NCBI GenBank assembly: GCA_017309115.1
Contig: JAFLEF010000027.1
Location: 1 to 64,000 of the forward strand
From: Verrucomicrobiota bacterium
GTDB lineage: Bacteria; Verrucomicrobiota; Verrucomicrobiia; Limisphaerales; UBA9464
Direction: 5' to 3'
DNA: 64,000 nt
Positions 1,027-23,885 of the stretch are shown one piece after another. A model generated the notes under the pieces. The model was not told the DNA's origin, made no database searches, and was given only the letters and a program-made list of their open reading frames with translations. Numbering within the stretch: the first letter of the stretch is position 1; each line of letters starts with the position of its first letter. The position numbers and the translations under genes were made by a program.

Positions 1027-2742
1027 GTGGCTGCCAAAGACGACTATCTGATCGATACGATGCTCGAGACGGGCCTGCTGGCCCCTGAGCTGGTGGACGA
1101 AGGCCGTGCCGAGGCGGAAGCCAACGGCGAGGGCGTTTTGGACACCTTGGTCAAAAAGGGTTTGGTGGATTCCTCGGTGGTAACGATGGCCAAGGCCACG
1201 TACTTCGGTGTGGAATCCGTCAACCTGGGTGACCTGAAGCTCGGCGACGACGTCATCGCCCTTGTTCCCCGGCATGTGGCCAAGAAATTCAACGTGATGC
1301 CAGTCGGGCAGAGCGACAGCGGCGCCATCATTGTGGCGTTGAGCGATCCGTCCGACATCGATTCCGTGGATGGCTTGCGTCACGCGCTCAACCGAGATCT
1401 GGAACTGCGCGTAACCAGTGCCAGCGACATTGAGACCTCGCTGAACCGGTTCTACGGCGGGTCTTCCCGGGATGATGGCGGGATCGCCAAGATGATTCAG
1501 GACATCACCGAGGGTGAGGTCGAAGTGACCGGTCTTTCGGGGGATGTCGGCAACGATACCGAGGGAGTCGATGCCGATGCGCCAATCATCAAGCTGGTGA
1601 ACCAAGTGATCGTGGACGCCTTCAAAAAGCGGGCTTCCGATATTCACCTGGAGCCCCTGGCCAAACGTTTTCGCCTCCGGTTCCGCATCGACGGCGTGTG
1701 CGTGGAGCAGCCCGATCTTCCGAAACGCCTTCAAGCGCCGATCATTGCCCGTCTCAAGATTCAGTCGGGCATGAGCATTGCGGAGAAGCGCATCCCGCAG
1801 GACGGCCGTATCAATACCAACGTCGGTGGCAAGACTATCGACTTGCGTGTGAACGACATTCCCACCCAGCACGGGGAGTCGATCTGTATGCGTATTCTCG
1901 ACAAATCCGGTCTGCGGCTGGGTTTGGCGGAACTGGGCTTTTTTGCCGATGACCAGGCGACGTTCGAGCGTTTGATCGGTCTGCCGGACGGCATTCTGTT
2001 GGTCACCGGGCCCACCGGTTCCGGCAAAACAACGACGCTGTATTCCTGTCTCAACTACATCAATCGACCCGACCGCAAAATCATCACGGTTGAGGACCCG
2101 GTGGAATACATGTTGGCGGGCATCAACCAAGTGCAGGTTAATGAACACATTGGCTTCACTTTCGCCAACGCGCTCCGGTCCATGCTGCGGCAGGCGCCCA
2201 ACGTGATCATGCTGGGGGAAATTCGCGATCTGGAGACCGCCTCGATTGCGATCAATGCGTCCCTCACCGGTCACTTGGTGTTCTCCACGCTGCATACCAA
2301 CGACGCGCCCGGTGCGGTCACTCGTTTGATCGACATCGGTGTGAAACCGTTCCTAGTGGCGTCTTCCGCCCGCTGTTTCATGGCCCAACGGTTGGTTCGC
2401 AAAGTCTGCAAAAACTGCGGCTCTCCGCACGTTCTGACCGACAAGGAAGTTCAGTCGCTCAACATTACTCCGGAGCAGTTGCAGCAATCTTCCGCGCGAA
2501 AAGGGCGCGGGTGCTCCGAATGTAACAAGACCGGATGCCGCGGTCGGTTTGGTATTTTCGAGATCTTCCTCGTTCAGGATGAAGTGCGCCGCCTAATCTT
2601 CGAGAAGGTTCCTTCCAATGTATTGCGGCGAAAGGCTCTGGAACTGGGAATGCGAACGCTCCGGGAAGACGGAACGCGCAAGGTTTTGGCTGGTCTGACC
2701 ACGGCCGAAGAAGTGGTTCGGGCGACCGTCAGCGAACACTGA
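1027..2742 (+). CDS. pilB: PilB/GspE-type assembly ATPase (first copy)
   Basis: A 571-aa hexameric secretion ATPase that powers pilus or pseudopilus extension at the inner membrane. The N-terminal ~150 residues are an MshEN/T2SSE-N domain. The RecA-like core has the P-loop GPTGSGKT (residues 328-335, Lys334), an Asp box in the region VEDPVEYM and a Walker B around GEIRDLETA. A Cys-x2-Cys pair (CKNC) and a second cysteine group (CSEC) near residues 460-505 form the zinc subdomain typical of PilB and GspE. The start is GTG at 1027: nothing upstream in frame is better and the N-terminus aligns with the family. The next gene, pilT, begins 68 nt downstream. Function is secure; whether it serves a true type IV pilus or a T2SS-like pseudopilus is open. 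Confidence 0.93.
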   Translation: MAAKDDYLIDTMLETGLLAPELVDEGRAEAEANGEGVLDTLVKKGLVDSSVVTMAKATYFGVESVNLGDLKLGDDVIALVPRHVAKKFNVMPVGQSDSGAIIVALSDPSDIDSVDGLRHALNRDLELRVTSASDIETSLNRFYGGSSRDDGGIAKMIQDITEGEVEVTGLSGDVGNDTEGVDADAPIIKLVNQVIVDAFKKRASDIHLEPLAKRFRLRFRIDGVCVEQPDLPKRLQAPIIARLKIQSGMSIAEKRIPQDGRINTNVGGKTIDLRVNDIPTQHGESICMRILDKSGLRLGLAELGFFADDQATFERLIGLPDGILLVTGPTGSGKTTTLYSCLNYINRPDRKIITVEDPVEYMLAGINQVQVNEHIGFTFANALRSMLRQAPNVIMLGEIRDLETASIAINASLTGHLVFSTLHTNDAPGAVTRLIDIGVKPFLVASSARCFMAQRLVRKVCKNCGSPHVLTDKEVQSLNITPEQLQQSSARKGRGCSECNKTGCRGRFGIFEIFLVQDEVRRLIFEKVPSNVLRRKALELGMRTLREDGTRKVLAGLTTAEEVVRATVSEH

Positions 2743-2810
2743 GGTAGATCATGGCAACGCATTTGCTGCTTTCGATCTAGGATCGCCCGCAAAATTTCAA
2801 AGGATTCGTC

Positions 2811-3920
2811 ATGTCGTATCAAATGTCCGATCTGTTGCAGTTGGTGGTGTCAGAGAACGCCGCCGACTTGCACATCCGAGTAGGGATTCCCCCAGTCATC
2901 CGCCTCCATGGTATTCTCCACCGCGTGGAGGGTCCGACTTTGAAGCCGGAGGACACCGAGGAACTGATGCGCTCCATCACCTCCGAAGATCACATTCAGC
3001 ATATCCGGGAAAAGGGCGGCGCCGACTTCGGATTTGCCTTCGGTGAACTGGCTCGGTTTCGCGTTTCGGCCTTCAAGGAGAAGGGCAACTTCGCCCTCGT
3101 GCTTCGGCAGATTCCGAGCAAGCTGCTGACGATGGAGCAGATTGGTATCCCGCCGAGTGTCAAGGAGTTGCTCTGGCGGCCGCGCGGACTGATCTTGGTG
3201 ACTGGGCCGACCGGTTCGGGCAAGACCACGACCCTCGCGTCGATGATCAACATCATCAACGAAGAGCGTGACGAGGCCCACATCATCACGGTCGAGGATC
3301 CGATCGAGTATTACCACAAGCACAAGAAGGCGGTGATCACCCAGCGCGAGGTGAACGTAGACGTGCCGAACTTCGCCGAGGCCTTGCGCCGCGCCTTGCG
3401 GCAGGACCCGGACGTGATTCTGGTCGGTGAGTTGCGCGATCTGGAAACTATGGAAGCGGCCATCACTGCGGCCGAAACGGGTCACTTGGTGTTCGGGACC
3501 CTGCACACCACTGGCGCGGCCAAGACGATTGACCGCATCACCAACGCATTCCCGATGAACCAGCAGGAAATGATCCGCATTCAGCTCTCCACAGTGCTGC
3601 AGGCGGTGATTTCCCAATTGCTCATTCCGCGGGTGGACAAACCGGGTCGCGTTGCGGTGTTTGAGATCATGGTCAACACGCCTTCCATCGCGGCGCTGAT
3701 TCGTGACAACAAGTCCTTCCGTATTCAGTCTGACATCCAAACGGGTGCCAAGTTCGGCATGGTGACGCTCGACAGCTTCCTTCTGGAGAAGTACGAGGCG
3801 GGGATGATTGCCGAGGAGGAAGTGCTGACCAAGGCGCAGGATCCAACCACGATCCTGCAGAAGGTTCAGGAACTGAAGGCCGCCAAAGCCGCCGCCGCAG
3901 CCGAAGAAAACCGTCGCTAA
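2811..3920 (+). CDS. pilT: PilT-type retraction ATPase
   Basis: A 369-aa ATPase of the PilT/PilU group, which depolymerises pili and drives twitching. It lacks the MshEN domain and zinc subdomain of PilB. The P-loop GPTGSGKT starts at residue 132 (Lys138), with a Walker B around GELRDLETM, and the His-rich region [14 protein letters not shown] is typical of PilT. The C-terminal region around [11 protein letters not shown] corresponds to the conserved AIRNLIRE-like motif of PilT. The tail is Ala/Lys-rich. A purine-rich stretch precedes the ATG. It sits between two PilB copies, with only 6 nt to the second. The presence of PilT argues for a retractable type IV pilus and against a plain type II secretion system. 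Confidence 0.93.
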
Positions 3921-3926: not shown

Positions 3927-5624
3927 ATGTCCGATCCTGTTACTGACCCGCTGCTACTGCTGTTGCGTGACCGTGGCATGTTGGATGACCTCCAGTTCGA
4001 GGAGGTCAGTCAGGAAGCCGGCCGAAGCGGTAAACCGGTACTTCAGGTCATTCAGGATTACGGTTTGCTCGATAAGGACATGGTCCTCCAGTTATTGGCG
4101 GACCATTTGGGGACTTCGGTCGTGGAGATCGACGAATCCGCCATTACGCCGGACGTCGTCGCGGCCATCCCGGCGGACAGCGCGCGCATGTATCAATGTG
4201 TTCCCATCGCCCTTTACGGTGACACCGTGCAGGTGGCGTTGGCGGATCCTTTGAATCCAGCGGTACTCGACGAGTTGGGGTTCACGGTAAAGTTCCAGCT
4301 GCAACTCGTGGTGGCCGATCCCGCGGCCGTCTTGCAGGCCATCGGCAAGTTCTATCCGGCCCAGGGTGGATCAGGATATGCCGATATTCTGAAGGAACTG
4401 GGGGGCGGCGGTCCGAATGAAGATCAAGAAGATACTCCGAAGGGGCCGGACTTGGGATCCGAGGCCAATGACGCCCCGATTGTGAAGTTCGTGAATCTGG
4501 TCCTGATGCAAGCGGTGCAGGACCGGGCGAGCGACATTCACTTCGAACCCTTCGAAGATGAGTTCAAGATTCGGTATCGCGTGGACGGAGCCCTCTACGA
4601 GATGTCGCCGCCGCCGAAGAATCTCGCCAGTCCCGTGACCTCCCGCCTAAAGGTCATGGCCAACCTGAACATTTCCGAGCGCCGTTTGCCTCAGGACGGT
4701 CGTATTTCGGTCAACATTGGAGGACGCCAAGTGGACCTCCGTATGTCCACTCTTCCCACGGCTTTCGGTGAATCGGTCGTGCTCCGCGTTTTGGACCGGT
4801 CGGCAGTCAAGATGGAGTTGGAGTCCCTTGGATTTCCGACGGATGTCTACGAATTCACCATCGAAACCATCAATCAGCCGAACGGGATTTTTGCCGTTAC
4901 CGGTCCCACTGGCTGCGGCAAGACCACGACGTTGTATTCGGCCTTGCGCCGGATCAATACCATTGATGCCAAGTTGCTGACGGTGGAAGACCCGGTCGAA
5001 TACGACATTGAAGGCATCATGCAGGTGCAGACCAACGAAGGTGCCGGTTTGACCTTCATGAAGGCCCTGCGGGCCTTTCTGCGTCAGGATCCCGACATCA
5101 TCATGATCGGGGAAATGCGCGATTTGGAAACTGCTCAGATCGCCATTCAAGCGTCGCTAACGGGTCACTTGGTGCTGTCCACGCTGCACACCAACGATTC
5201 CGCGGGTGCCGTAACGCGTCTCGTGGATATGGGGGTCGAGCCCTTCCTCATTTCGTCCACGCTGTTGGGGGTGTTGGCGCAACGGTTGGTTCGCAAGGTG
5301 TGTGTAAAATGCCGGACCCCATTTGAACCCACGGAGATGCAGTTGGGGCAGTTGGGCCTATCGGCCCATGATCTCGGCGACAAGACGTTCTTCTACGGAC
5401 GCGGCTGTTCCACGTGCAACGATTCGGGTTATCGCGGCCGAAAAGGAATTTACGAGTTGCTCGTGATTAAGGACGCGATTCGCAATCTAATTAATGAGCG
5501 AGCGCCAACCGTGGTCATTCGTCAGCGGGCGATTGAGCTGGGCATGGTGACGCTGCGAGAAGATGGATTGAGAAACATTTACGCTGGTGAAACAACGGTG
5601 GAAGAAGTGCTGAAATACACGTAA
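3927..5624 (+). CDS. PilB/GspE-type assembly ATPase (second copy)
   Basis: A 565-aa paralogue of the PilB protein encoded at 1027-2742, with the same order: MshEN domain (about 1-150), linker, RecA-like core and C-terminal zinc subdomain (CVKC and CSTC cysteine pairs, about 455-500). Its P-loop reads GPTGCGKT (from residue 326, Lys332), with Cys in place of Ser. The Walker B region is GEMRDLETA. The N-terminal portion is clearly diverged from the first copy, suggesting a different regulatory input or pilin partner. It starts 6 nt after pilT and ends 22 nt before pilC, so co-transcription is likely. Two extension ATPases in one operon may give alternative assembly modes. Confidence 0.92.
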
Positions 5625-5646: not shown

Positions 5647-7005
5647 ATGCCGAAGTATCAATACGTAGCGATGGATTCTCGGGGCAAGGAGCAGAAGGGC
5701 GTGCTCGAGGTGGCCTCTCAGGCGGATGCGATCAATCGCCTGAAGGAAATGGGCTATTTCCCGACCAAAGTGATGGAGGCCGAGAAGCCTAAAGGAAAGA
5801 AGGAAGCCAAGAAGGCGGCCCCGGCGGGCGGGGGAGGCGGAGGAAAGAAGAAGGGGGGCGGCCTCGGGAATATCAACATCAAGATCCCGGGCATTGGCGG
5901 CGGGGTAAAGACCAAGGTGTTGACGACCTTTACCCGGCAGTTGGCGACCTTGGTGGACGCCGGTTTGCCGCTCTTGCGCGGATTGCGCGTGCTCCAAAAA
6001 CAGGAGAAGAACCCCACGCTGCGGAATTGCGTGGACGACCTGTCGATGTCGATCGAAGGCGGTTCGACCTTCTCCGAAGCGCTGGCGCAGCATCCCAAGA
6101 TCTTCAACCGACTCTTCGTCAACATGGTCAAGGCCGGCGAACTCGGCGGTGTGCTCGAAGTCGTGCTCAACCGTTTGGCCGAGTTCATGGAGAAAGCCGA
6201 GAAGATCAAGGGCAAGGTCGTGGCGGCCATGTTCTATCCGACGGCGGTCATGACGGTGGCAGTGGGCATTCTGGCGCTGCTGATGGTCGTGGTGGTGCCA
6301 AAATTTAAGACCATTTTCGCCGACTTGCTGGGGGATGCGGGCATGCCGGCCTTCACCGAGTTCGTGCTGTCGATTTCCGACGCCATCAAGAGCAAGACCA
6401 TTGTGATCACTGAGGGTCCCCCGTACGTGTACCCGGGACCGGTCATTTGGGGCATTGTGGCGTTTGTCATCGTCTTCAAGTTGGCGATTCGCATGAAGAA
6501 AGGCCGCTGGCTCTGGGATAAGGCCAAACTGCACTTCCCGGTGATCGGCAGTGTGATCCACAAAGTGGCCATCGCCCGGTTCTGCCGGACGCTCGGCACC
6601 TTGGTGAGTTCTGGTGTGCCCATTCTCCAGGCGTTGAACATTGTTCGCGAAACCGCGGGTAATGTGGTCGTGGCCAACGCCGTCCAACTGATTCACGAGA
6701 GTGTCAAGGAAGGTGAAACGATCACCGCGCCGCTGGAGAAGTCCGGCGTGTTCCCGCCCATGGTGATTTCGATGGTGGACGTCGGTGAGCAAACTGGTGC
6801 CCTCCCGGAAATGTTGCTGAAGATTGCCGACACCTACGATGACGAAGTCGACAACGCGGTCGCGGCCATGACCTCGCTGCTGGAACCGATCATGATCGTG
6901 TTCCTGGCCGTGATCGTCGGGAGCATCGTCATCGCTCTGTTCCTCCCGCTCATCACGCTGATCGACAAACTCGGTGGCGACGACGGTGGCGGCGGCGGCG
7001 AGTGA
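5647..7005 (+). CDS. pilC: PilC/GspF inner-membrane platform protein
   Basis: A 452-aa polytopic protein that couples the ATPases to pilin polymerisation. A short N-terminal segment (about 1-45, YQYVAMDSRGKEQKGVLE-like) is typical of GspF/PilC. It is followed by a low-complexity Lys/Gly linker (about residues 50-90). Two T2SSF domains follow, each with the conserved LATLVDAGLPLLRGL-type helix (about 98-112) and its second version (TLGTLVSSGVPILQAL, about 317-332). Hydrophobic segments lie near 200-222, 260-280 and at the C-terminus (about 415-440). The tail is Gly/Asp-rich. A strong terminator follows directly, so this ends the ATPase/platform transcription unit. Confidence 0.92.
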   Translation: MPKYQYVAMDSRGKEQKGVLEVASQADAINRLKEMGYFPTKVMEAEKPKGKKEAKKAAPAGGGGGGKKKGGGLGNINIKIPGIGGGVKTKVLTTFTRQLATLVDAGLPLLRGLRVLQKQEKNPTLRNCVDDLSMSIEGGSTFSEALAQHPKIFNRLFVNMVKAGELGGVLEVVLNRLAEFMEKAEKIKGKVVAAMFYPTAVMTVAVGILALLMVVVVPKFKTIFADLLGDAGMPAFTEFVLSISDAIKSKTIVITEGPPYVYPGPVIWGIVAFVIVFKLAIRMKKGRWLWDKAKLHFPVIGSVIHKVAIARFCRTLGTLVSSGVPILQALNIVRETAGNVVVANAVQLIHESVKEGETITAPLEKSGVFPPMVISMVDVGEQTGALPEMLLKIADTYDDEVDNAVAAMTSLLEPIMIVFLAVIVGSIVIALFLPLITLIDKLGGDDGGGGGE

Positions 7006-7016: not shown

Positions 7017-7055
7017 AAAAACCCGGTCTGGAGCAGGGCTTCAGACCGGGTTTTT
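7017..7055 (+). terminator. Rho-independent terminator after pilC
   Basis: A near-perfect hairpin pairs aaaaacccggtctg (7017-7030) with cagaccgggttttt (7042-7055) around an 11-nt loop. The 3' arm runs into five T residues. The stop of pilC is 12 nt upstream. The symmetric A/T flanks could let it work in both directions. Confidence 0.85.
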
Positions 7056-7086: not shown

Positions 7087-7116
7087 TTGACACAGTGAAC
7101 GCGCAGGCAGTAAATA
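7087..7116 (+). promoter_or_regulatory. Candidate sigma-70 promoter for the toxin-antitoxin pair
   Basis: A perfect TTGACA (7087-7092) is followed after 18 nt by TAAATA (7111-7116). The GTG start of the toxin lies 45 nt downstream. The intervening stretch has repeated gttac/gtttac words that could be antitoxin operators. This is the best promoter match I see in the window. Confidence 0.6.
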
Positions 7117-7160
7117 CAAAGTAGTTACACTGCATTGGCGTTTACGTTACTGTCTTCCTT

Positions 7161-7448
7161 GTGGAGTTCGACTGGAACAATCCGCCATTCGCAATGGATG
7201 GTTCTTTGACGGTGCAGGATATCGAAGAGTCCTTCGAGGATCCGTTTGCCGTGCGGTTGTTGCCGGATTCATCCCGTTTCGGGGTGCAAGCCCGATACTT
7301 CAACCTCGGCAAAGCGGATTCCGGACAGGGGGTCTTCAGTGTTTACCGCACCAATGGTCGGATTTTTCGAGTGATCTGTGCCCGAGAGTTCTCGGACCAG
7401 GAAGAGTTCTTTTATCAACGGAAGCTTCGGCAAGCCCTCCAATCCTGA
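7161..7448 (+). CDS. brnT: BrnT-like toxin (type II toxin-antitoxin)
   Basis: A 95-aa protein. The GTG at 7161 gives the N-terminus MEFDWN, matching the usual MEFEWD start of BrnT; the first ATG (7194) would remove it. Further family signs are a DPFAV segment near residue 27, a central RYFNLGKADSGQGVFSVY strand pair, and RIFRVICAREFS with the conserved Arg/Ala-Arg-Glu near the C-terminus. BrnT is a ribonuclease-like toxin related to RelE, neutralised by BrnA. The stop codon overlaps the start of the downstream gene by one base (TGATG), as expected for a coupled toxin-first operon. The assignment rests on motif resemblance and on the partner. The pair lies between pilC and the pseudopilin genes. 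Confidence 0.72.
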   Translation: MEFDWNNPPFAMDGSLTVQDIEESFEDPFAVRLLPDSSRFGVQARYFNLGKADSGQGVFSVYRTNGRIFRVICAREFSDQEEFFYQRKLRQALQS

Positions 7449-7729
7449 TGCCAGTAGGTCTCGTCACGTCTTGGGATGAAGTTCCGCTGTTCGATAGTGA
7501 ACAGTCGGAGGCGGATTTCTGGGCGGATACCCAGGTGGACCTGCGGCTAATGGAATCGGCGACGGTGGGGGCGACCGAGCAGACCGAATCGGTGACCATC
7601 ACTCTGCGCATGGATCCGCGAATGCTCGCGCGGATCAAGCGGCTCGCCCGGGAGCGCTTCCTAAACTACCAGAGCATGATTAAGCAGTGGCTCAGTGAAC
7701 GGATGGAAAAGGAATTGAAGGACCGTTGA
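7448..7729 (+). CDS. brnA: BrnA/CopG-like antitoxin
   Basis: A 93-aa protein. Its N-terminal half is acidic, including the ADFWADTQVDL segment typical of CopG-type antitoxins paired with BrnT. Its C-terminal half, VTITLRMDPRMLARIKRLA followed by NYQSMIKQWLSERM, is a ribbon-helix-helix DNA-binding motif. Such antitoxins bind the toxin and repress their own promoter. Translation is coupled to the toxin by the TGATG overlap. The next gene, a prepilin, starts 34 nt downstream with no visible terminator between them, so read-through from the TA promoter into the pseudopilin genes is likely. Confidence 0.75.
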   Translation: MPVGLVTSWDEVPLFDSEQSEADFWADTQVDLRLMESATVGATEQTESVTITLRMDPRMLARIKRLARERFLNYQSMIKQWLSERMEKELKDR

Positions 7730-7763: not shown

Positions 7764-8549
7764 ATGAAAACGCTTTGCCTCAACCAATCGAAGGGCTCCC
7801 GGCCCGTGCCGGCGGTTCTGGCGTTCACCCTGATCGAACTCCTGGTGGTCATTTCGATCATCGCCGTTCTGGCGGGTCTCGTGGTGGGGGTCGCCCCGGC
7901 CGCCAGCAAGCGCATGCGGGAGGCTCGGATCAATGCGGAACTCGCCGCGCTCGTTTCCGCAATCGAGGCGTACAAGGTCAAATACGGCGTCTATCCTCCG
8001 GATAACTACGATCCCACCAACCGGGTGACCAACCCGACCCTGAATTCCCTCTACTACGAGCTGACGGGAGTATTGGTGGATAACAATCCCGCGAATCCCC
8101 GAATCATTTCGGCCGAGGACAACACCGTCATCAATCCGGATGTCTTCCAGAAGTACTTTGGCCGGGAAGGGGTGATGAATAGCATTCCCCTGATTCCGGC
8201 GCCGACGCCGGCGGCCCAAAACAAGCTGGACCGCGAGCAAAAGAAGAACCTGATCCGCCGCGAATTCAAAAAGGGTCAGTACGCCGAGATCTTTCGCTCA
8301 ACGTCCGATCCGGGTTACGTCGACTTGGAGGTTTTGGCGGTGGGTTTCTCCGGGGATGCCTCCGGTAAGAAGGGCTCGGGATTCTCTTGGCCGCCCCGCT
8401 CGCCGATTAGTGAACAGCCGATCAAGACCAACCCCGGCCTTAATCCGTGGCGCTACGTTTCAACCAATCCCACCAATAACCCCGGCCGGTTCGATCTCTG
8501 GGCCGAGATCCGCGAACGCGATCGCACCACCATCGTGGGCAACTGGTAA
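7764..8549 (+). CDS. Prepilin-like protein (GspG-like), pseudopilin 1
   Basis: A 261-aa protein with a 20-residue basic leader and the type III signal FTLIELLVVISIIAVLAG, so it would be cleaved by a prepilin peptidase and assembled into a pilus or pseudopilus. The residue before the Phe is Ala, not the usual Gly. After the N-terminal helix comes a GspG-like segment (NAELAALVSAIEAYKVKYG, then YPPDNYD), while the long C-terminal half is not recognisable. Glu at +5 is present. It is the first of six prepilin-like genes in the same direction. It resembles its neighbour at 8593-9393 in the N-terminal half, suggesting duplication. Confidence 0.85.
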   Translation: MKTLCLNQSKGSRPVPAVLAFTLIELLVVISIIAVLAGLVVGVAPAASKRMREARINAELAALVSAIEAYKVKYGVYPPDNYDPTNRVTNPTLNSLYYELTGVLVDNNPANPRIISAEDNTVINPDVFQKYFGREGVMNSIPLIPAPTPAAQNKLDREQKKNLIRREFKKGQYAEIFRSTSDPGYVDLEVLAVGFSGDASGKKGSGFSWPPRSPISEQPIKTNPGLNPWRYVSTNPTNNPGRFDLWAEIRERDRTTIVGNW

Positions 8550-8592: not shown

Positions 8593-9393
8593 ATGAAAGT
8601 CATCGTATCCTCCCGACCGCGCCGCGGCTTCACGCTGATCGAGTTGCTGGTCGTGATCTCCATCATCGCCATTTTGGCGGGATTGCTCCTGCCGGCGGTC
8701 GCCCGTGCGAGTCAAGCGGCCAAGATCAAAAAGGCGGAGGTCGACATGAACAACCTGGTCGCGGCAATCACAGCCTACAATGCGGCCTACAGTCGAATGC
8801 CGACCTCCAAACGGACCCGGGCGGCGATTACGGAGGAGTGGCCTGATTTTCTTTATGGGACCCAGCAGGGCGGACAACAGGTTCTCGATTCCAAGCTTAA
8901 GACGGGATATTTCTCGAAGGCTAACCCGACTGGTAACTGGAACATCAGCAATGCGGAGTTGATGGCAATCCTAACCGGCACCGAGCTTGCCAATTTCCCA
9001 CCCGGCGCCCCTGGCTATGCCGTCCAGAACGACATGGACAATCGACCGATCAACTTTAACAACGCTCTCAATCAAAAGGGTAACATCTACCTCAACACCA
9101 AGATCGCCAAGGGTGTGGGTCCCAACGGTTTGGGCGAACTCGACAAGGTTCTGCGCGATCCCTGGGGTCGTCCGTATCTGGTCTGGGTGGATACCGATTT
9201 CGACAACAAGATTGTGGATCCGTTTCCGGCCGCTGCGGGTGGCAGTGTTCTCCCGGCCAACAATCCCAATGCCCGTTTCATTGCCCAGCCGGTACTGGTG
9301 ATGTCGCTTGGGCCCGACGGCACTGCGGACTTCACCCAACCCTCGAACGTCAAGGGCACGGCTAACGCGGACAACCTCTACAGCTGGCGCTAA
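8593..9393 (+). CDS. Prepilin-like protein (GspG-like), pseudopilin 2
   Basis: A 266-aa protein. The open frame extends upstream to 8356 over the previous gene, but the ATG at 8593 gives a proper prepilin leader (MKVIVSSRPRRG) followed by FTLIELLVVISIIAILAG, with Gly at -1 and Glu at +5. The segment NNLVAAITAYNAAYSRMPT parallels the GspG-like helix of the preceding gene. Near the C-terminus, LRDPWGRPYLVWVDTDFDN is the DPWG motif of GspG/major pseudopilin proteins, which often form a calcium site. It is the most convincing major-pseudopilin candidate of the set. Confidence 0.87.
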   Translation: MKVIVSSRPRRGFTLIELLVVISIIAILAGLLLPAVARASQAAKIKKAEVDMNNLVAAITAYNAAYSRMPTSKRTRAAITEEWPDFLYGTQQGGQQVLDSKLKTGYFSKANPTGNWNISNAELMAILTGTELANFPPGAPGYAVQNDMDNRPINFNNALNQKGNIYLNTKIAKGVGPNGLGELDKVLRDPWGRPYLVWVDTDFDNKIVDPFPAAAGGSVLPANNPNARFIAQPVLVMSLGPDGTADFTQPSNVKGTANADNLYSWR

Positions 9394-15200: not shown

Positions 15201-16679
15201 ACCCGGGGTATCGACAACCAGTTGCTAGTCTCCATTGGCGACATTCAAGCGCGGAGTCTGTGGCGAAACCCGCCGGCTTCTCCGGCCGGAATGGATCCGA
15301 TCGAATTCGCCATCCAAGGATTGAAGTATTTCATTTACGGCGAGGAGCCTCAGGGTTCGAGCGACTTTGCCGCGCGGGTTCGTCGAGAGTATGGCTCAAA
15401 TCTGGTGGTGCAGGTTGGATTCAATCCTTCGCCCCAAGTCTTTCTGTCGGACCGTCGCATGGCCAATGATCCGCTGGTTCATTACACGAAAGATGATCTG
15501 GCCCCGGGCTACTTTTTCCTCACCGATTCGGGTTATACCGAACTGCAGCACGAGTTTTTCGGACTGGTCCCCAGCACCAGAGTGGGAGGACCGACTTTGA
15601 CCACGAACTTTGTGGCCTTCGACGTCGGTACGCCGTTTAAGGAAATCAATGCGTATGCGCCCTGGGGCACGAATGCGAATCTGACTGGCGTGCAGGCGCC
15701 GACGACGGGAAACTCGAATCCTGGAAACCGAAATCCCAATACTTCGGTTCCTACGGCGTTCGACTACAGCTTCAAAGACCCGTTAATCCGCTCGCCAGCT
15801 GATTGGAATTTCCCCGCAGGCACCAATGCGTCGTTCCGCTTTTCGGGTGTGGGGCAGTTGGGACGGATCCATCGCGGCACTCCGTGGCAGACGATTTATC
15901 TGAAGTCGCTCGATGCGTTTGAAGTTGGTCCTGGGGAGGTCTCCTTGATGACGCGGCTTGGAATGGGTCGCCTGACGTGGACGGGTTGGGCTGGAAACCG
16001 GTTCACCCACCCGACCAATGACTGGAAGATCGTCGATCTCTTTACCACCGCGTTGAACGATAATGCGGCGCGAGGCCAATTGGGCGTCAATCAGGCAGGC
16101 GTATCCGCTTGGGCGGCGGTACTGTCGGGAGTTCCTTTGCTGGAAACCACCAGCACCACCAATCCGGATAACCCGCTTCCGCTTTTTCTGGAGCCGGGCT
16201 CGCCAGAGATCACTCAGATGATTACCGGGTACACGCATGCCGGGACCAACGTCCCCGGACTGCTGGCCAGTATGGCCGCCGTTAAGAATGGGGTTCAGGT
16301 AAATCCGGATGGCGTCTTCCCGAAACTCGGCTCAATTCTTCAGGTGCCCACCTTTTCGGATCGAGCTCCGTTCTTGAATCAGGACATCGGCTGGACCAAT
16401 GCCACCCGGGTCGGTGACGAGGTCCTGGAGCGATTGCCTCAGCAGATCCTGTCGCTACTGCGAGCCGATGAACCCCGTTTCGTCGTCTATTCCTTTGGCC
16501 AAACCCTCAAGCCCGCTCAAGGTGCTGTTAATCTGCGGCCGGGCCCCCTGTACGGGATTGTGACCAACTACGTGATCACCGGTGAGTATGTCACCAAAAC
16601 CGTGTTGCGACTGGACGGAGATCCCCGCCGATTGCAGCCCATCATCGAGGATCAGCGAGTCATCCTGTCGAATCCGTAA
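12267..16679 (+). CDS. Giant GspK/PilX-like pseudopilin (Verru_Chthon cassette A-like), 1470 aa
   Basis: The N-terminus has leader MKRPDFPARSAQHARRG, then IALVITLLMLSVVTITAVAF: a prepilin-type signal with Gly at -1, Ile at +1 and no Glu at +5, exactly the deviation that marks GspK. The segment SRRERAAVGSAAEQLNARL and ETGVNHALGRIASRIS follow the GspK/PilX pattern. GspK itself is about 320-350 aa, whereas this protein is 1470 aa and the extra ~1100 residues are beta-rich and full of TN dipeptides, without a domain I recognise. In T2SS, GspK caps the tip. Here the tip could carry a large adhesive or substrate-binding head. ATGA overlap with the GspJ-like gene. The 2391-aa protease begins 30 nt downstream. 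Confidence 0.78.
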   Translation: MKRPDFPARSAQHARRGIALVITLLMLSVVTITAVAFLAVSRRERAAVGSAAEQLNARLVAETGVNHALGRIASRISAVTNRLAYGGTNRLGDGGYFVSTNFGNPNFRIGPNFSYLDTRDYRQLTNVSYFRDDDFNRFNLASAADREQYARLLGNLYYDPRPPVFVATNRIPGDPVDFRFYLDLNRNGRFETNGLIAEFDRQGRVIGDLSDVRFAWGDPEWIGVLENPDVPHSGTNRFIGRFAYVVVPTSATLDLNFSGNNAKKIDVGQGGLFPADRNGINPPSGFYRNQGVGTWEMNLAGFFGALHPDIWMFRTDDYLYRTNRNDANQGLTFADAERLRRFRQERYAPPSAEQFFESDSGSSAVAHVRNVFEQDGVDGYSDGPLVVNRADIFNRFENDAPDLSWSGGDLTNRFADFNDLFNSDLGLSYRITGNYTNQGNVVIGNSTFDRYTFYRLINQLGTDSGDGRFETGTHPAYADLFRGREAVNPFGFYRRAKLNLNYAQENPNGDSVDSARVANFRPWQPLEWFTNATHRLLLSEFTNGLPFFPPRVDRPVPGLAINGWTRVNDNNTSYPTNYSYTAQVHRPLQMAANIFDATTNFFLDAGRRVAAPTVFRPLLYEDFRSPGVLRLHGFQEVTNGVTVDNLLRSEWTAPDLVTNGAPRWPMSPSVRLAPSAPEANPPITTRERNLNLFGIPWVVGAKKGLPNFNQALWQTVIQPTRRLIITRPTRTSRIGQTELPISGANTGGFRTAYQYVLSITNRIGVEGWNSYFTNFPRNVRIFATNVLEFTLMDETGPGAPVPILQRRELLSANILTNNWPARAYISPQFSRNTSSPLFYEFPNTITNSITTTPNGGLVIGTSFIYDPTAVSGVRAFPLTQTNQGRVVISQSNRRFLTPVISAYVTNSLLYAIIDDQSGRLLDIATLRSTMVRTNIISTLSFDSQGVEQEFVNAQAGTQTSASAGMPAFWSTNLVQNNRTRGIDNQLLVSIGDIQARSLWRNPPASPAGMDPIEFAIQGLKYFIYGEEPQGSSDFAARVRREYGSNLVVQVGFNPSPQVFLSDRRMANDPLVHYTKDDLAPGYFFLTDSGYTELQHEFFGLVPSTRVGGPTLTTNFVAFDVGTPFKEINAYAPWGTNANLTGVQAPTTGNSNPGNRNPNTSVPTAFDYSFKDPLIRSPADWNFPAGTNASFRFSGVGQLGRIHRGTPWQTIYLKSLDAFEVGPGEVSLMTRLGMGRLTWTGWAGNRFTHPTNDWKIVDLFTTALNDNAARGQLGVNQAGVSAWAAVLSGVPLLETTSTTNPDNPLPLFLEPGSPEITQMITGYTHAGTNVPGLLASMAAVKNGVQVNPDGVFPKLGSILQVPTFSDRAPFLNQDIGWTNATRVGDEVLERLPQQILSLLRADEPRFVVYSFGQTLKPAQGAVNLRPGPLYGIVTNYVITGEYVTKTVLRLDGDPRRLQPIIEDQRVILSNP

Positions 16680-16709: not shown

Positions 16710-19700
16710 ATGCGCTTTTCCCGTCGCCATCAACTGGCCTTGCTCGTTCTCCTGCTGGTCTGCGCCTATCTCGGATGGCGCGTTCATGACCGCGGGTTGC
16801 TCCGCCGAACCTCTGTTGCCGCCGTCGATTCTGCCGCGGCGCGTCTGGCGTCGCAGCCGCTCCTCGTCACCGCTTCCGGAGTGCCAACCGCCCCGGTCGC
16901 GCCGCGTTGGATTCCGCTGGTAACGCTGCCGGCCGGTGGCGCCTCCCCGTTTCCTGACACCGAAGTGACGAATCGTCTGCGCAACACCCCGGCGTCCGTG
17001 GCGGACCTGATGCGCAATGACCGGGCGCTACTGCTGCGCAATGCCTTGGTGGATACGGCCAATGGCGAGCCATTGGCGGTTCCGGCGAAGTTGCGGTCCC
17101 AACAACCGGCCGAAGCCTATCTAATTCAGGCGCAGGGACCTCTGACCAAGGCGTTTCAGGATCGGTTGGTGGAGGCCGGAGCAACAGTAATCTCGTACGT
17201 CCCCAATAATGCCCTGTTGGTTCGGGCCTCGGCCGACGTGGCAGAGAAACTATCGACGTCTGCTGAAACGGCGGCCCTGATGCCCCTGGAGCCCTATTTC
17301 AAACTGAGCCCGAGTTTGCTGAACTTCGCTCTTACCGAAACTCCTCTTCCCGAGGGCTTGCGACTGGTATTGACGATTCCGGACGCGCCCACGGATTTGC
17401 CGGCACTGACCGCTCTGGGTGCCCGTGAGGTGGCCCGCGAACGGGGACCTTTCGGAACCTTGATTACCGTGGAAGCTCCCAAGGACAGCCTGGTGGCGCT
17501 CGCTGGCCTTTCTTCCGTGCATCGGGTGGAGCCCAAGCGCGGAGTTCGCTTGGCGAATGATCTGACTGCTTTTTCATTGGGGTCGACAACCTCCCGCGAA
17601 AACACCAATTCGTTCGATGACCTGAACGGGGAAGGGGTGTTGGTCAACATCAACGATTCCGGGGTGGATGCGTCGAGTCCAGACCTTACGGGTCGGGTTT
17701 TCACCCTATCCACCGAGCCCCAAGTGTTGACCGATCCAGACGGTCACGGAACTCATGTGGCCGGCAGCATTGCGGGGAATGGTTCTCAATCCGACCAGAT
17801 CACTGTGAATCCGCCGCAGGGGTCTGTTACTAACGCCAACTTTAAGGGCAAGGCGCCGAAAGCCCTCCTTTACGCGTTGCCGGTGGATTTGATTGCGGGT
17901 CCGGCTTCTGGTGATTCCTGGTTGCAAGAGACGGCGGCCGAAGCACCTCAGAGATTCAACTCGTTGGAGGACGTTTTGATTTCCAACAACTCCTGGGGTT
18001 ACTTTGGGTTGGATCCCTTTGAGTATACGACTCATTCCGCCAGTTACGATGCGGCAGTGCGGGATGCCTTGCCACGAACCTCGGGAGATCAGCCGATCCT
18101 TTACGTCTTTGCGGCGGGCAACGAAGGGTTGGGTGGCAATAACGGCGTGGGTGGGATTCCGGACAGCATTGTTTCGCCGGGTAATGCGAAGAACGTGATC
18201 ACAGTGGGTTCCCTCGAGAGTTTGCGTGGATTTACCAACGCCATCGTCCTCGACACCAATGGATCACCCGTGCAGATCGGCGCGCTGGTGGTGGTACCGG
18301 GCTGGGAAACCAATGGGGGGCCATATTTCACGAATGAAGTGCTTCTGCCGTTTACGGACACCGACTGGCAGATTTCTTCCTTCTCGAGCCGCGGCAATGT
18401 GGGCATTGGAATCGAGGGAGCGGTGGGACGGTTTAAGCCCGACGTCGTGGCCGAAGGTTCCTTCATTGCTTCCGTCCGTTCGACGCAATGGTCGCCGCCT
18501 CCGCTGCCGGATCGAGATGATCCGTTCTTCCCGGTCGCCGCCATCTTCGACGAAATCAATGCCGAAGTACTGCCGCCGTACCGCTTTGAATCCGGCACCA
18601 GCATGGCGGCGCCGTCGATTTCCGGGTTGCTCGCGCAGTTGCAGCAATATTTCGAGTATACCGTTCAGCAGTTCCCCTCGGCGGCCGCGTACAAGGCCCT
18701 GCTCATCAACTCCGCTCGTCCGACCAGTCCGAGCTATATACCCACCCAAGATGAAGTGGTGAATTACGCGGGTTGGGGAAAGCCCAATCTGCAACGGGCT
18801 CTGGGAAGAGGATTCAAGTCCGTCCGCAACGGGGGTGAGGTTGATATCATCGGGGTTGAATCGACCTCCGGTTTGGCCACGGGCGACTCGGCGGATTTTC
18901 AGCTCAATGTCGGTCTAACGAATGCGTTGGATGTCCCGCTGCGAATCGCCTTGGTCTGGACCGACCCGCCGGGTGATCCGTTGGTGGGTCCCAAATTGGT
19001 CAATGATCTGGACCTCATTGTGTCGAACAAGATCACGGGTGAACTCTATTGGGGAAATGACTTCGACAGTGCGACGGGTCTGTCCCGTCCGCACGATACC
19101 AACGAAATCTCGACCAATGGTCTGGCGACTCTCGATCGCATCAACAATGTCGAGCGGATCGTTTTGCCGTCGCCCATCGGGTCCAACCTGGTGATCACGG
19201 TCGTAGCCCGCCGGGTCAACGTAAACAGCGTCCGATCCAACCCCTCGGTCATCGCGCAGGACTTCGCCTTGGCCTTCTCTTCGGATTTCGACGCGGCGGA
19301 TACCAATACCGTCGGAGTTTTGGATTTCCCCACGGGCTTCAACCCGATTGCCGCGGCGTTTGTGCGTCCGCCGATCCAAACGGTTACGAACGGCTATGCG
19401 TTTCTTAACCAACGGGCGGGCGCCAATTCGCCGCTGGAAGGCGGCACGAATGGGCAGTTCAAGCAGTGGCAGTTTTACGTCTTTACCAATCTGCCTGGCA
19501 CCACCACGAACGGAGACATCATCTTTACGAACGGAAGCAATGTGGCGTTCGTGACGTTCCCTGTAGGTAACCTGTCACGCGGACGGACCAATGGACCCGA
19601 TGTTGATCTGTATGTTTCGAGGGATCCGGGCCTAACCAACCTCAATCCAACCGCAGTGGCCGAAGCCCGCAAGTCTACGACCCGCGGGGGCACGGAGTTG

Positions 19701-22700
19701 GTCTATTATATCGGAGAAGCGTTGAGCGAGGACAACGTGTTTTACGTGGGCGTGAAGTCCGAGGACCATCAAGCCGGGGAGTATGGGTTTGTGGGCGTGA
19801 GTACCGACGAACCGTTCACATCTTTGGACGAGAATGGGTTTCCCCAGCCTCTGGCAATTCCATTGATTCAACCCATCCCAGACGGAACTCCTGCCGATCC
19901 CGGGCTCGGCTTATATATGGCGATTAGCATCATCCCGGCGGAGTTGCGGGCGGTTTATGCGGATGTGACCACGACCCATCAGAATTTCACGGACCTTAGC
20001 TCGGCCGTGAGTTTCAATCGGCAGTCGGCGGTTCTGCAGAATCACACCAAACTCTTGGGACAGGATTCTGGGACGAACGTCAGTGTCCTGTACGACGATA
20101 CCGGCAGCGGGTTGCCCGATTCACAACCCAGTGATGGACCTGGGTCGTTGATCGATTTTCTGGGTAATTCCGGCGGCGGCGTCTGGTTTCTTGAGACGGT
20201 GGACAATGCCTTGGGTTTCGAGGGGCGGATCAATGATCTGGGCCTTTCGTTGGTGCCCAATGATTTCGGTGAAGAGTTTGTGCTGCGTTGTGTGCGGGGT
20301 GGTTTTATCGGTTTGGAAGTCATCAACGTTCCGCCCGAAGCCAGTCGGTTGACGATCACCATCACCAACATTGATCCGGCCTTGCCGCTCGAGGTGTTTA
20401 TTAAGCGAGAGGCGTTCCCGGACATCACGGATCCGGCGAACAACGACAAGTATGCTCAGATCCCGGCCACCGGCGGCAGCGTCTCCATAGGCATTCGAGA
20501 CGTACCCCCGTTGGAGGCCGGCCGGTATTTCATTGCGGTTTACAATCCTCACGATGTCTTGGTTTGTTATCGGATCCGAGGACAGATCGAACGGAATTTG
20601 GACGCCAGCTTTACCCGTTCGTTTGTTTCGACCGAGGTGGGAACCATTCCTGACGCAGCGCGTCGATTCTCCCGAATTGAGGTTGATGACCCGCGCAAGG
20701 TGACTGCCATGGACGTGGGGTTGCGCATGAGTCATCCCCGGCTCTCCGATTTGGCTCTTCGCTTGGAGAACCCGAATGGCTACAGCGCGGTGATGTTTGA
20801 AAACCGGGGCGGAGTTTCCGCCACCAACCTGGGTCAGACCGTGGTCTCGACCAACGACGAGTTCCAGCACGTTGCGCTGACTTATGATCCGGCCAGCCAG
20901 AAGGCGGCGGTGTATGTGAACGGCATCCTTTCCTTCGAACGGTCGCTACCTCCTGGATTCCGGCCGGCGACCAGTAACGAGTTCTTCTTTGCACTCAATC
21001 CGCAACGTTTCTCCGACAATCAGGGGGTTACCCTGGATGATTTCGGAATCTGGCGGCGAGCCCTCCGTCCCCAGGAAATTCGGGACATCTATTTGCGGGG
21101 CGTGCAGGGGGAGGCCAAGCAGCCTTCCGATCGGAATTCCGGGCTCTATGCGCTGTGGCCCTTCAATGGTAACGGCAACGATGTCATCGGAACCAACCGA
21201 GCGGCGTTGGTTGGAGGTTATCAATTTGTTGACGGTCAATTCCCGGGAACCCAGGCGATTTACTTCCCTGAGCTCTCGTACGGCTACGATACGAATTTCA
21301 TCTCTCTGGCCCCGGGCTCGGCGTTCAGTCTCGAGGGTTGGGTGTATGTCCGGCCGACGGCCACCAATGCGGTCTATGCCGGTTGGTGGGGCGCGGGGAG
21401 TCAGAATCGATTTGGCCCTGGTTTGCTGACCAGCAGTCAGTTCGGCTTGGGATCGATCACCGCCGTGATGACCGATACCAATGGTAATCAGATCTACCTC
21501 AACTCGGCTCCAAATCAGTTTGTCCTCGGTCGGACGATTACCAATGTGCTCTTCGCCACATTCAGTGAGAACACCAATCGTTCGAACGAGAAGATCAAGT
21601 TTGTGCCGCCTCCGTTCACCGGCCAATTGATCGATGAACAACTGCTGTCCGAGGACAACTTTGAGTTGTTCGGTCCCGGTGCCTACACCCAAGGTACCCT
21701 CTTCCGCGGCTGGGAAGTGGTGAGCAACACTGTGGCGATTCTCCAGGATTCGCTGTTGGCGTATAACAGTGACCGGTTGTTGGCCATCTCGAACAGCGTC
21801 GTCCGCCGAACCTTCCCGGCGGTGGTGGGTGAACGATACAAGGTGGCCTTTGCCGGACGTCTGGCGCCGGAGGAAACCAATAATATCAATCCGCAGGTGT
21901 TCCTCGATGGGTTTGCTGTTACGCCTCCGGCGTTGGCGCTACCGACCAACGAATGGAACACCAACATCGTCTTCGAGATTCGGGCGACTAAGCCAACCGT
22001 GGTTCTGGAGATCAATGGATTCGGCGCGCCGGCTGGTTCCGCGGGAATGCTGGTGGACGATGTGCAGTTCTATCAGAGCGGAGGCACGGTCTCGTACTTG
22101 TCGGAAGAACCGCTGCGCCCGCTGCTTGGTGCAGGTCTCGGCACGTGGTTGCTCGAGATGAACGACACGCGAACTCCGTACGAGGGAAGTCTCCTGGATT
22201 GGCAACTCACCTTCACCTTCGCTCCGGTCAGTATTCCCGCAGTTCGCCTGACCAACGGGGTTCCCTTCACCACCAACACGTTTGCGGGTGAGCCCCAGTA
22301 CTTCTTCATCGATGTTCCGCTGGAGGCCTCGACCACCACCAATCTGATTCAGAGTTTGACGGGTGGTCCGCTGGCGCTCTGGTACAACCAGTTGGGGTTG
22401 CCGGGGCAAGGGGCACTTCCGGAGGACTATGCACTCGTGTATCCGACCAGCGGCGACCTTATTTTTGCTCGGGCGATCAACACCAACACCCCACCGGTGT
22501 TGATTCCGGGTCAGCGGTACTATCTCTCGGTGGAGAATCTTATCCAAACGCAGACCAACCTGTTCACCATCCAGGTGGATTTCGGAATCAAGATCACTCC
22601 TCTGACCAACGGAATTCCGGTGGTGGCGACCAACCTCAACAACGGTCTGATCGACTACTATTCGTTCCAGGTGTCCTCGAATGCGCTTGGGGTGTCCTTC

Positions 22701-23885
22701 CTGCTGACGAATCTCTCGGACAATCTTCAATTGGTGGCTCGCAAAGGGCCTCAGTTGCCCACCCGCACGCAGTTTGACTACGCCAGTACCAATGCTGGTG
22801 TCGCGCCCGAGGTCATCCTGATCGATCAATCCAGTCAACCGGTGCCCCTTTCTCCGGGGACGTGGTACTTGGGGGTGTACTCTATTAGTAGTAACATCGG
22901 AGTTCCGATAACCTACACCATCATTGGCAACGAGGTACTGGGATCGGTGGTGGGGCTGACGAATGGTGTTCCCTATGACGGTACGATCACCAATACGACC
23001 GGCATCTCGTACTTCTATCTCGATATCGTGGATGAACCGATCACGGCGACATTTGCCCTGACCAACCTCAGTGGAAACGCGAATCTATATCTGCGCCGAG
23101 GTCTGCCGTTGCCCGCGACCAACTCGTTCGAGTATGCGAGCACCAATGGCGGAACCACCAACGAAGTGATCACGTTGATTCCCGGTAGCCAACCGGTGCC
23201 GCTGACTGTGGGACGCTGGTATCTGGCCGTGGTGGCGGTGGATCCGCTCCCGTTGAACTTCACTGTGGTCGCCAGCTATATCCCCAATACCTTTGTGGTT
23301 ATCCCGCTCGAGGACAGCATTCCCTTCGAGTATTTCGATGCTCCGCCGACCAATAGTCTCTTTTTCAGCTTTGATGTGAATCCAGGCGTGAATGCCGTGC
23401 TCTTTGAAACGTACGGGCAGAACGGAGACGCGATTCTGCGAGTGTCTCAGGGTGTCCTCCCGCCGTTCGCGCAACCCGGCAATATCTTCACGGCGCCCAA
23501 TCCAGGGCCCACTAGCCAGCGCATTGCGGTCAGAACTGACACGGTCACCAATCTGGCGGGTCCATGGTATCTGGAGGTTCAGGTGCTCTCGACCAACGTC
23601 ATCGACTTCACGGTCCGGGCGGCGACGCAACAAGATGGTCTATTGATCAGTGGTGAACCCTTGACAGTCCAAATGGAGGCTGGGCCGCCGTTGGTGCTCA
23701 CCTTCGATACGATTCCGGGTGAAATCTACTCCATCCAATCGACGACGGACCTGTCGACCGATCCGGTGGTCTGGGTGTTTGTGGGATTTGAGACGGCCAC
23801 CAGTGATCGACTGATCTTCCCGCTGCCGGCGCCCGGTCCCACCGAGAGCACTCTGTTCTATCGGGTGGTCCAGGAGCCTCAGTAA
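16710..23885 (+). CDS. Giant multidomain subtilase (S8 serine protease), 2391 aa
   Basis: The N-terminus is a signal or anchor (basic MRFSRRHQ, then about 15 hydrophobic residues). A pro-domain-like region (about 130-195) precedes an S8 catalytic domain with Asp316 (INDSGVD), His346 (DGHGTHVAG), Asn471 (AAGNEG) and Ser631 (GTSMAAPS), so it should be active. Downstream are a first P-domain-like module (about 1035-1185), a second P-domain whose halves (about 1308-1380 and 1610-1840) are separated by LamG-like sequence, a DUF642-like segment (about 1650-1795), then about four pre-peptidase C-terminal (PPC) beta modules (1845-2310). The last ~75 residues form a beta module ending in FYRVV. It lies 30 nt behind the GspK-like gene and so is probably co-expressed with the pseudopilins, as a possible exported or displayed substrate. 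Confidence 0.88.
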   Translation: MRFSRRHQLALLVLLLVCAYLGWRVHDRGLLRRTSVAAVDSAAARLASQPLLVTASGVPTAPVAPRWIPLVTLPAGGASPFPDTEVTNRLRNTPASVADLMRNDRALLLRNALVDTANGEPLAVPAKLRSQQPAEAYLIQAQGPLTKAFQDRLVEAGATVISYVPNNALLVRASADVAEKLSTSAETAALMPLEPYFKLSPSLLNFALTETPLPEGLRLVLTIPDAPTDLPALTALGAREVARERGPFGTLITVEAPKDSLVALAGLSSVHRVEPKRGVRLANDLTAFSLGSTTSRENTNSFDDLNGEGVLVNINDSGVDASSPDLTGRVFTLSTEPQVLTDPDGHGTHVAGSIAGNGSQSDQITVNPPQGSVTNANFKGKAPKALLYALPVDLIAGPASGDSWLQETAAEAPQRFNSLEDVLISNNSWGYFGLDPFEYTTHSASYDAAVRDALPRTSGDQPILYVFAAGNEGLGGNNGVGGIPDSIVSPGNAKNVITVGSLESLRGFTNAIVLDTNGSPVQIGALVVVPGWETNGGPYFTNEVLLPFTDTDWQISSFSSRGNVGIGIEGAVGRFKPDVVAEGSFIASVRSTQWSPPPLPDRDDPFFPVAAIFDEINAEVLPPYRFESGTSMAAPSISGLLAQLQQYFEYTVQQFPSAAAYKALLINSARPTSPSYIPTQDEVVNYAGWGKPNLQRALGRGFKSVRNGGEVDIIGVESTSGLATGDSADFQLNVGLTNALDVPLRIALVWTDPPGDPLVGPKLVNDLDLIVSNKITGELYWGNDFDSATGLSRPHDTNEISTNGLATLDRINNVERIVLPSPIGSNLVITVVARRVNVNSVRSNPSVIAQDFALAFSSDFDAADTNTVGVLDFPTGFNPIAAAFVRPPIQTVTNGYAFLNQRAGANSPLEGGTNGQFKQWQFYVFTNLPGTTTNGDIIFTNGSNVAFVTFPVGNLSRGRTNGPDVDLYVSRDPGLTNLNPTAVAEARKSTTRGGTELVYYIGEALSEDNVFYVGVKSEDHQAGEYGFVGVSTDEPFTSLDENGFPQPLAIPLIQPIPDGTPADPGLGLYMAISIIPAELRAVYADVTTTHQNFTDLSSAVSFNRQSAVLQNHTKLLGQDSGTNVSVLYDDTGSGLPDSQPSDGPGSLIDFLGNSGGGVWFLETVDNALGFEGRINDLGLSLVPNDFGEEFVLRCVRGGFIGLEVINVPPEASRLTITITNIDPALPLEVFIKREAFPDITDPANNDKYAQIPATGGSVSIGIRDVPPLEAGRYFIAVYNPHDVLVCYRIRGQIERNLDASFTRSFVSTEVGTIPDAARRFSRIEVDDPRKVTAMDVGLRMSHPRLSDLALRLENPNGYSAVMFENRGGVSATNLGQTVVSTNDEFQHVALTYDPASQKAAVYVNGILSFERSLPPGFRPATSNEFFFALNPQRFSDNQGVTLDDFGIWRRALRPQEIRDIYLRGVQGEAKQPSDRNSGLYALWPFNGNGNDVIGTNRAALVGGYQFVDGQFPGTQAIYFPELSYGYDTNFISLAPGSAFSLEGWVYVRPTATNAVYAGWWGAGSQNRFGPGLLTSSQFGLGSITAVMTDTNGNQIYLNSAPNQFVLGRTITNVLFATFSENTNRSNEKIKFVPPPFTGQLIDEQLLSEDNFELFGPGAYTQGTLFRGWEVVSNTVAILQDSLLAYNSDRLLAISNSVVRRTFPAVVGERYKVAFAGRLAPEETNNINPQVFLDGFAVTPPALALPTNEWNTNIVFEIRATKPTVVLEINGFGAPAGSAGMLVDDVQFYQSGGTVSYLSEEPLRPLLGAGLGTWLLEMNDTRTPYEGSLLDWQLTFTFAPVSIPAVRLTNGVPFTTNTFAGEPQYFFIDVPLEASTTTNLIQSLTGGPLALWYNQLGLPGQGALPEDYALVYPTSGDLIFARAINTNTPPVLIPGQRYYLSVENLIQTQTNLFTIQVDFGIKITPLTNGIPVVATNLNNGLIDYYSFQVSSNALGVSFLLTNLSDNLQLVARKGPQLPTRTQFDYASTNAGVAPEVILIDQSSQPVPLSPGTWYLGVYSISSNIGVPITYTIIGNEVLGSVVGLTNGVPYDGTITNTTGISYFYLDIVDEPITATFALTNLSGNANLYLRRGLPLPATNSFEYASTNGGTTNEVITLIPGSQPVPLTVGRWYLAVVAVDPLPLNFTVVASYIPNTFVVIPLEDSIPFEYFDAPPTNSLFFSFDVNPGVNAVLFETYGQNGDAILRVSQGVLPPFAQPGNIFTAPNPGPTSQRIAVRTDTVTNLAGPWYLEVQVLSTNVIDFTVRAATQQDGLLISGEPLTVQMEAGPPLVLTFDTIPGEIYSIQSTTDLSTDPVVWVFVGFETATSDRLIFPLPAPGPTESTLFYRVVQEPQ

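Follow-up and report, generated by a model that had tools for sequence, protein, structure and literature searches.

What does a giant subtilase do at the end of a run of type IV pilus genes? The question arises from a 64,000-nt stretch of DNA (the window) on contig C32 of a Verrucomicrobiota genome that is 95.3% complete, with 3.7% contamination, and divided over 111 contigs. All of the genes concerned lie on the forward (+) strand. The run opens with a PilB-like assembly ATPase (1027..2742; PF00437, 1.4e-129; MshEN, 2.4e-17; TIGR02538, 589.2 bits, under the cut-off of 675.65), a PilT/PilU family retraction ATPase (2811..3920; TIGR01420, 442.8 bits against a cut-off of 319.1), a second PilB/GspE-type ATPase, PilB2 (3927..5624; PF00437, 5.6e-137; TIGR02533, 625.3 bits, cut-off 630.25), and a PilC/GspF platform protein (5647..7005; PF00482, 6.1e-68). 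Six prepilin-like genes and the S8 family subtilase (16710..23885) come after these. The preliminary description of the locus had listed PilB, PilT, a second PilB, PilC, six prepilin-like genes, and the protease, all of which are present at the coordinates given here; its account of 4-nt overlaps or a 7-nt gap among the last four prepilin genes (termed H, I, J, and K below), with the protease (S8) 30 nt farther on, agrees with the measured spacings (H/I -4, I/J +7, J/K -4, and K/S8 +30 nt). It was right as well that the prepilins come after PilC, but it overlooked a BrnT-like and a CopG-like gene in between. The same gene order is seen in those fetched loci of the host's order that extend far enough, and because it recurs across the order, the gene set is more than a product of chance. 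The relatives' genomes are fragmented too, and contig ends limit the counts reported below.

Prepilin motifs are visible by eye in all six of the prepilin-like proteins. The first two are GspG-like (prepilin 1, 7764..8549, TIGR01710 1.7e-9, under cut-off; prepilin 2, 8593..9393, TIGR01710 9.3e-15, under cut-off, and N_methyl 3e-9, scored on a longer open reading frame, 8356-9393). The remaining four had been labeled GspH-, GspI-, GspJ-, and GspK-like and compared with the Verru_Chthon cassettes of this phylum: the prepilin-like types hold, but profile support is weak, and none of the four Verru_Chthon scores passes its cut-off. These four are a GspH-like minor pilin with a Verru_Chthon D-like N-terminus (9412..10332; TIGR02596, 47.6 bits, cut-off 70), a GspI-like minor pilin with a B-like N-terminus (10329..11282; TIGR02598, 18.4 bits, cut-off 51.4), a GspJ-like minor pilin with a C-like N-terminus (11290..12270; TIGR02599, 24.9 bits, cut-off 256.5; TIGR01711, 2.8e-4), and the giant GspK-like minor pilin K, of 1470 aa (12267..16679; TIGR02600, 25.3 bits, cut-off 332.3, residues 17-74 only; T2SS_GspK, E 0.041). 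The locus thus shares with Verru_Chthon A-D (TIGR02600, 02598, 02599, and 02596) a run of four genes with the same types of prepilin-like N-terminus, and differs in that its proteins are matched at the N-terminus only; part of the likeness also stands at the C-terminus of K, in comparison with relatives from the phylum. A search of the open-licence PubMed Central literature for Verru_Chthon found no paper. The N-terminus of K in the window (RRGIALVITL) lacks Glu5, as expected of GspK/PilX. A profile comparison matches residues 1110-1466 to the K proteins of eight genomes from beyond the order (hhalign probability 98.9, E 2.4e-17), so K appears to be of GspK type, its extra length coming from a central insert.

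The protease itself, at 2391 aa, comprises an N-terminal hydrophobic segment, a pro-region (which appears in the structure model), a KP-43-like catalytic domain, LamG and PPC domains, and a C-terminal domain. The subtilase fold and the Asp-His-Ser triad are present, and the triad is kept in every S8 row that covers it. Relative to the KP-43/SubHal subtilases, S8 stands apart by its length, the N-terminal hydrophobic segment, the extended pro-region, and the long multidomain C-terminal part. By eye, the hydrophobic segment has no obvious signal-peptidase site in the window protein and 25 named relatives, and for this reason S8 may stay in the inner membrane. Four further proteins in the sampled stretches of genome share the C-terminal domain of S8, consistent with a general route of export. 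Copies of this possible sorting or anchoring domain are found at window positions 23607-23882 (the end of S8) and 56186-57190, and at L109:12971-16717. No match to the PilY1 beta-propeller (PF05567) was found in S8 at E 0.1, and a PilY1 search of 97 relatives returned 0/97, though the control likewise matched nowhere.

The genes most likely form two units, PilB-PilT-PilB2-PilC and then BrnT-CopG-G-G-H-I-J-K-S8, given a terminator hairpin after PilC and hairpins upstream of BrnT in relatives. The terminator scan places a strong intrinsic terminator at the end of the ATPase-platform unit (7017..7055, + strand), with a stem of 18 pairs vs. at most 9 in the other terminator-like sites of 1-16000; the number of such sites in that interval (17 found, 16.9 expected from shuffling) and in 16000-25000 (8 found, 9.4 expected) is at chance level. 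The PilC-BrnT gap was measured in 20 loci, that of the window among them; 14 have a hairpin of at least 7 pairs within 200 nt upstream of BrnT, and 10 have at least five T around the 3' end of the hairpin. From 7056 to 23885, the + strand scan gave nothing above chance, with stems of 5-7 pairs; since this interval holds only chance-level terminator-like sites and the K-S8 gap is 30 nt, co-transcription of the pilins and S8 is likely.

The BrnT-to-S8 unit is headed by a conserved promoter- or operator-like stretch (7087-7128), comprising TTGACA as a putative -35 box (7087..7092, +) and the putative operator GTAAATACAAAGTAGTTAC (7110..7128, +), recognized by motif conservation. Sigma-70 consensus promoter scans of 1-25000 called zero promoters, position 7087 included. 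A loosened form of the motif, GTAnnTACnnnG[TC][ACG]nn(n)AC, composed after the sequences had been viewed, occurs upstream of BrnT in 31/33 order loci, window included, and TTGAC lies 15-17 nt before it in 26 of these 31. With a strict pattern (at most one mismatch), 45/59 relatives were matched, usually at one place per genome, as is also the case in the host genome; the reversed pattern gave 3 matches. The distance to BrnT is 46-70 nt in 29/30 fetched motif matches. In a further set of named relatives (described below), the motif is matched in 24/31 loci, all 24 with TTGAC at the -35 place, and six of the seven misses have a related TGTAnTGACAATGTATTGACAATGTATG-kind repeat by eye. Two genomes (G060 and G068) have the BrnT-CopG pair and lack the motif within one mismatch, and two others (G052 and G069) have neither.

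The first gene of this unit encodes a BrnT-like protein of the toxin fold family (7161..7448, +), which falls under the PF04365 cut-off (21.6 bits vs. 34.5); 27/29 members of its family match the profile at E ≤0.1 (best 1.5e-8), and no solved relative was found for it. Directly after it, with a one-base overlap, is the gene for a CopG/BrnA-type ribbon-helix-helix protein (7448..7729, +; PF12441, 46.4 bits, cut-off 28). Both genes are present in 33/40 fetched order loci. Three of the seven loci without the pair have room for it (i.e., 33/36 with room), and in these three (L076, L083, and L092) the pilin operon is kept and the pair is missing between PilC and the pilins. Across the order loci, median identity to the window copies is 65.6% for BrnT, 69.0% for CopG, and 69.5% for PilC, and 28-36% for the pilins. 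Same-family BrnT-CopG pairs also occur outside the order (L130-L135 and L137-L140) with unrelated neighbors (by reading, some of the seven loci viewed have a miaA-like or a glyoxalase-like gene) and no operator-like motif; GTAnn(n)TAC is absent from the 160 nt upstream of the 10 fetched outside-order pairs that are not beside pilins. In G100, which lies outside the order and has its pair beside pilins, GTAAATAC is present upstream of the pair.

The preliminary description had staked its case on a conserved linkage between the protease and the pseudopilins, and this linkage is found. In a sample of 97 order genomes from 47 families, using the best K and S8 rows, K is immediately followed by S8 in the same orientation in at least 77 genomes and at least 34 families, among the matches listed. 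On the same basis (again among the matches listed), K and S8 are on different contigs in six genomes (G034, G048, G052, G061, G063, and G080), six have a K row only (G040, G047, G073, G074, G086, and G088), two have an S8 row only (G035 and G087), and six have neither (G005, G044, G056, G058, G065, and G072). Four of these 20 unlinked genomes were fetched (G088, G052, G074, and G073). The contig ends inside K in G088, ∼200 nt past K in G052, and ∼630 nt past K in G074. In G073, no S8 match was obtained (3/4 candidates scored); the pilins are kept, and K is followed by an antisense gene that is KdsA-like by reading. G073 is thus one clear exception to the linkage, and most of the other unlinked genomes are blurred by contig ends or by the matches listed.

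The set of named relatives (the best 80 of 286) is not independent of this sample, as 40/80 share DNA with its loci. Within these best 80, 63 loci have K ahead of S8, 11 are cut at the contig start, and six are free-standing; for the other 40 loci the counts are 24 linked, 10 cut at the contig start, and six free-standing. The free-standing giant S8 relatives (L180, L202, L219, L222, L224, and L225) have no pilin set adjoining, which means that the S8 family can exist without adjacent pilins. All six genomes that hold them also carry K, and where there is sequence beyond K, S8 is there (3/3); among the remaining three, two end at a contig edge after K and one is fragmented. An S8 of the subdivision 3 type also turns up in several public records whose titles name Akkermansia muciniphila or Proteobacteria (L166, L169, L172, L177, L185, L203, L210, and L220), and these organism labels look doubtful.

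The operon was found across one Verrucomicrobiota order (named relatives: Verrucomicrobia subdivision 3, Pedosphaera, and Limisphaerales). In a draw of 288 genomes from the phylum, with at most two candidates scored per genome, only this genome gave a whole-length match to the K profile among the matches listed, and 91 others matched it over short segments, mostly the N-terminal ∼60 residues. At 10 K loci examined from these 91 genomes (L136 and L141-L149), no S8 was found. In one of them, from the G100 genome of another class (L136:1-5883, - strand), the gene after K encodes a protein of at least 1961 aa with DUF7507 repeats and there is no S8; the S8 slot can thus be occupied by another kind of giant protein. 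No description of a BrnT-CopG-pilin-S8 operon was seen in the open-licence PubMed Central literature.

The rest of the machinery is encoded elsewhere in the host genome. The absence of a secretin and a prepilin peptidase near the locus, noted in the preliminary description, extends to the contig: family searches found neither on C32. They did locate three secretins (on C61, C57, and C39) and an A24 prepilin peptidase (on C90). The C61 secretin has a GspE-type ATPase and a GspM-like protein (the GspM label is from reading), the C57 secretin has a GspF-like protein, two pilin-like proteins (labels also from reading), and a weak T2SSB match, and the C39 secretin adjoins PilM (PF11104, 1.2e-32) and two proteins that match no Pfam family. 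L105 is a separate T2SS-like cluster of the genome. At L107:4107-17342, PilM, two such unmatched proteins, and a secretin precede two proteins with the S8 C-terminal domain. This PilM-secretin layout presumably resembles the Amuc_1098-1102 region of Akkermansia. Because of the PilT in the upstream unit and the PilM-secretin cluster elsewhere, a type IV pilus is favored.

Taken together, we read the BrnT-to-S8 unit as an operon for the pilins and tip of a type IV pilus, in which a KP-43-type subtilase takes the PilY1 slot and BrnT/CopG is the autoregulator, and give this reading a probability of roughly 0.43. Work on Myxococcus describes three minor-pilin clusters, each encoding PilY1 along with FimU, PilV, PilW, and PilX, which prime and tip the pilus, the PilX member lacking Glu5 as K does here (PMC7541494). 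The locus under study likewise has four FimU/V/W/X (GspH/I/J/K)-type minor pilins in one cluster, labels that come from weak profiles, together with one large protein that is here predicted to be exported. Unlike the Myxococcus clusters, the large protein is an S8 subtilase without a PilY1 domain, K reaches 1470 aa, and two GspG-like pilins and the BrnT/CopG pair are in the same unit as S8. The H-I-J-K minor pilins would probably constitute the priming and tip complex, with S8 in the slot that PilY1 holds beside FimU-PilV-PilW-PilX elsewhere. S8 would be made as a zymogen and held in the inner membrane via its N-terminal hydrophobic segment; removal of the pro-region, in the manner of subtilases, would free the catalytic and LamG-bearing part, which may then ride on, or be passed out by, the H-I-J-K tip, and at the surface may attack or grip polymers. 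The ribbon-helix-helix member of the BrnT/CopG pair probably binds 7110-7128, setting the output of the operon, presumably by repression. Weighing against this reading are the missing PilY1 domain of S8, the free-standing S8 copies, G073 with its pilins and K but no S8 match, the retention of PfkB beyond S8 in part of the named set, the C-terminal domain that S8 shares with other proteins, the lack of an obvious signal-peptidase site, the three loci with room but no pair, the motif-less G060 and G068, and the absence of a promoter call at 7087. The fuller proposal, of an order-wide protease-tipped type IV pilus in which PilY1 has been replaced by a membrane-held subtilase zymogen and a toxin-antitoxin pair serves as a dedicated promoter regulator, is more tentative, and we think it somewhat unlikely to hold in all its parts. 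If it is true, these bacteria, which live in soil and water and are known chiefly through metagenomes, would carry an active protease on a pilus to whatever surface the pilus contacts, and the prepilin cassettes of Verrucomicrobiota would gain a testable role. The BrnT/CopG pair would then also be a clear example of a toxin-antitoxin pair retained order-wide to regulate the operon of a surface structure, with its candidate binding site mapped.

Other roles for S8 were weighed against this reading. The preliminary description proposed a pseudopilus that could export the protease or hold it at the surface; in the form weighed here, H-I-J-K would be a type II-like pseudopilus and S8 its exported substrate, which would leave through a secretin encoded elsewhere in the genome and be released. 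The pseudopilin types are indeed those of a type II secretion pseudopilus (GspG-K), as reflected in the GspG/H/J-type profile matches, one of the three secretins is beside a GspE-type ATPase and a GspM-like protein, and the conserved linkage of S8 would be expected of such a substrate; we nevertheless find this rather unlikely, given a PilT encoded in the upstream unit, pseudopilins on a contig without a secretin match, the separate T2SS-like cluster, and an N-terminal hydrophobic stretch in S8 that is anchor-like, not cleaved-signal-like, by eye. That same segment, in which neither the window protein nor the 25 named relatives show an obvious cleavage site, and the pro-region in the model are also consistent with an envelope-tethered protease that stays periplasmic and serves in processing or quality control of K or of other proteins in the envelope. 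This role appears improbable, as LamG, PPC, and the shared C-terminal domain point to a protein that is secreted or displayed at the surface, and free-standing S8 copies exist. The least probable account, and a very doubtful one, treats S8 as a mere operon passenger, inherited vertically and sharing no function with the pilins. A PfkB gene 24 nt beyond S8 in the window offers a comparison: it is present in 4/5 family-level loci and absent in 11/11 order-level loci that have at least 1 kb beyond S8, all of which have S8. A loss of PfkB beyond the family was weakened as an interpretation by the named set, in which 20/45 loci with room keep the gene, including the distant L191 and L220 (S8 identity of 34-40%). 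S8 is kept more strictly than its neighbor, and the contrast is not absolute; given the retention in 20/45 named loci, part of the K-S8 linkage could be plain gene-order conservation. The confinement of the linkage to one order and the unlinked S8 paralogs also favor a passenger, but the linkage holds over at least 34 families at a median identity of 37% (among the matches listed), and S8 is behind K in 3/3 testable genomes that own a spare S8. A pilus-associated protease is favored over one that is freely secreted, acts in envelope processing, or is a passenger because S8 holds the slot of the Myxococcus PilY1.

For the BrnT/CopG pair, the alternative to a regulator of the pilin-S8 operon is an active addiction module of the ordinary toxin-antitoxin kind, whose place upstream of the pilins is incidental. 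Its overlapping genes, the toxin-antitoxin order, a PF12441 score above cut-off, and the homologous pairs at other places outside the order are what such a module would have. In favor of a regulator, two reports on Brucella place transcription of brnTA under the control of BrnA (PMC11980606; PMC10714953); against it, one related antitoxin failed to bind its own promoter (PMC10714953). The pair shares with the BrnT/BrnA type II system its gene order, a weak-profile toxin family, a ribbon-helix-helix partner, and a repeated upstream motif, and differs from it in that most of the order's genomes have it at a set position, heading a pilin operon. An addiction module seems distinctly unlikely in view of this shared position in 33/36 order loci with room, the high identity, the usually single operator place per genome, and a motif that is missing at 10 outside pairs away from pilins and present in G100 beside pilins. 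Such a distribution of the motif would be expected of a pair that leads the operon and regulates itself, and BrnT/CopG is probably a domesticated toxin-antitoxin pair that autoregulates the pilin-S8 operon. At the far end of the locus, a 1279-aa protein with lamin-tail and CotH kinase domains is encoded on the opposite strand (25446-29285, -), convergent to the PfkB gene.
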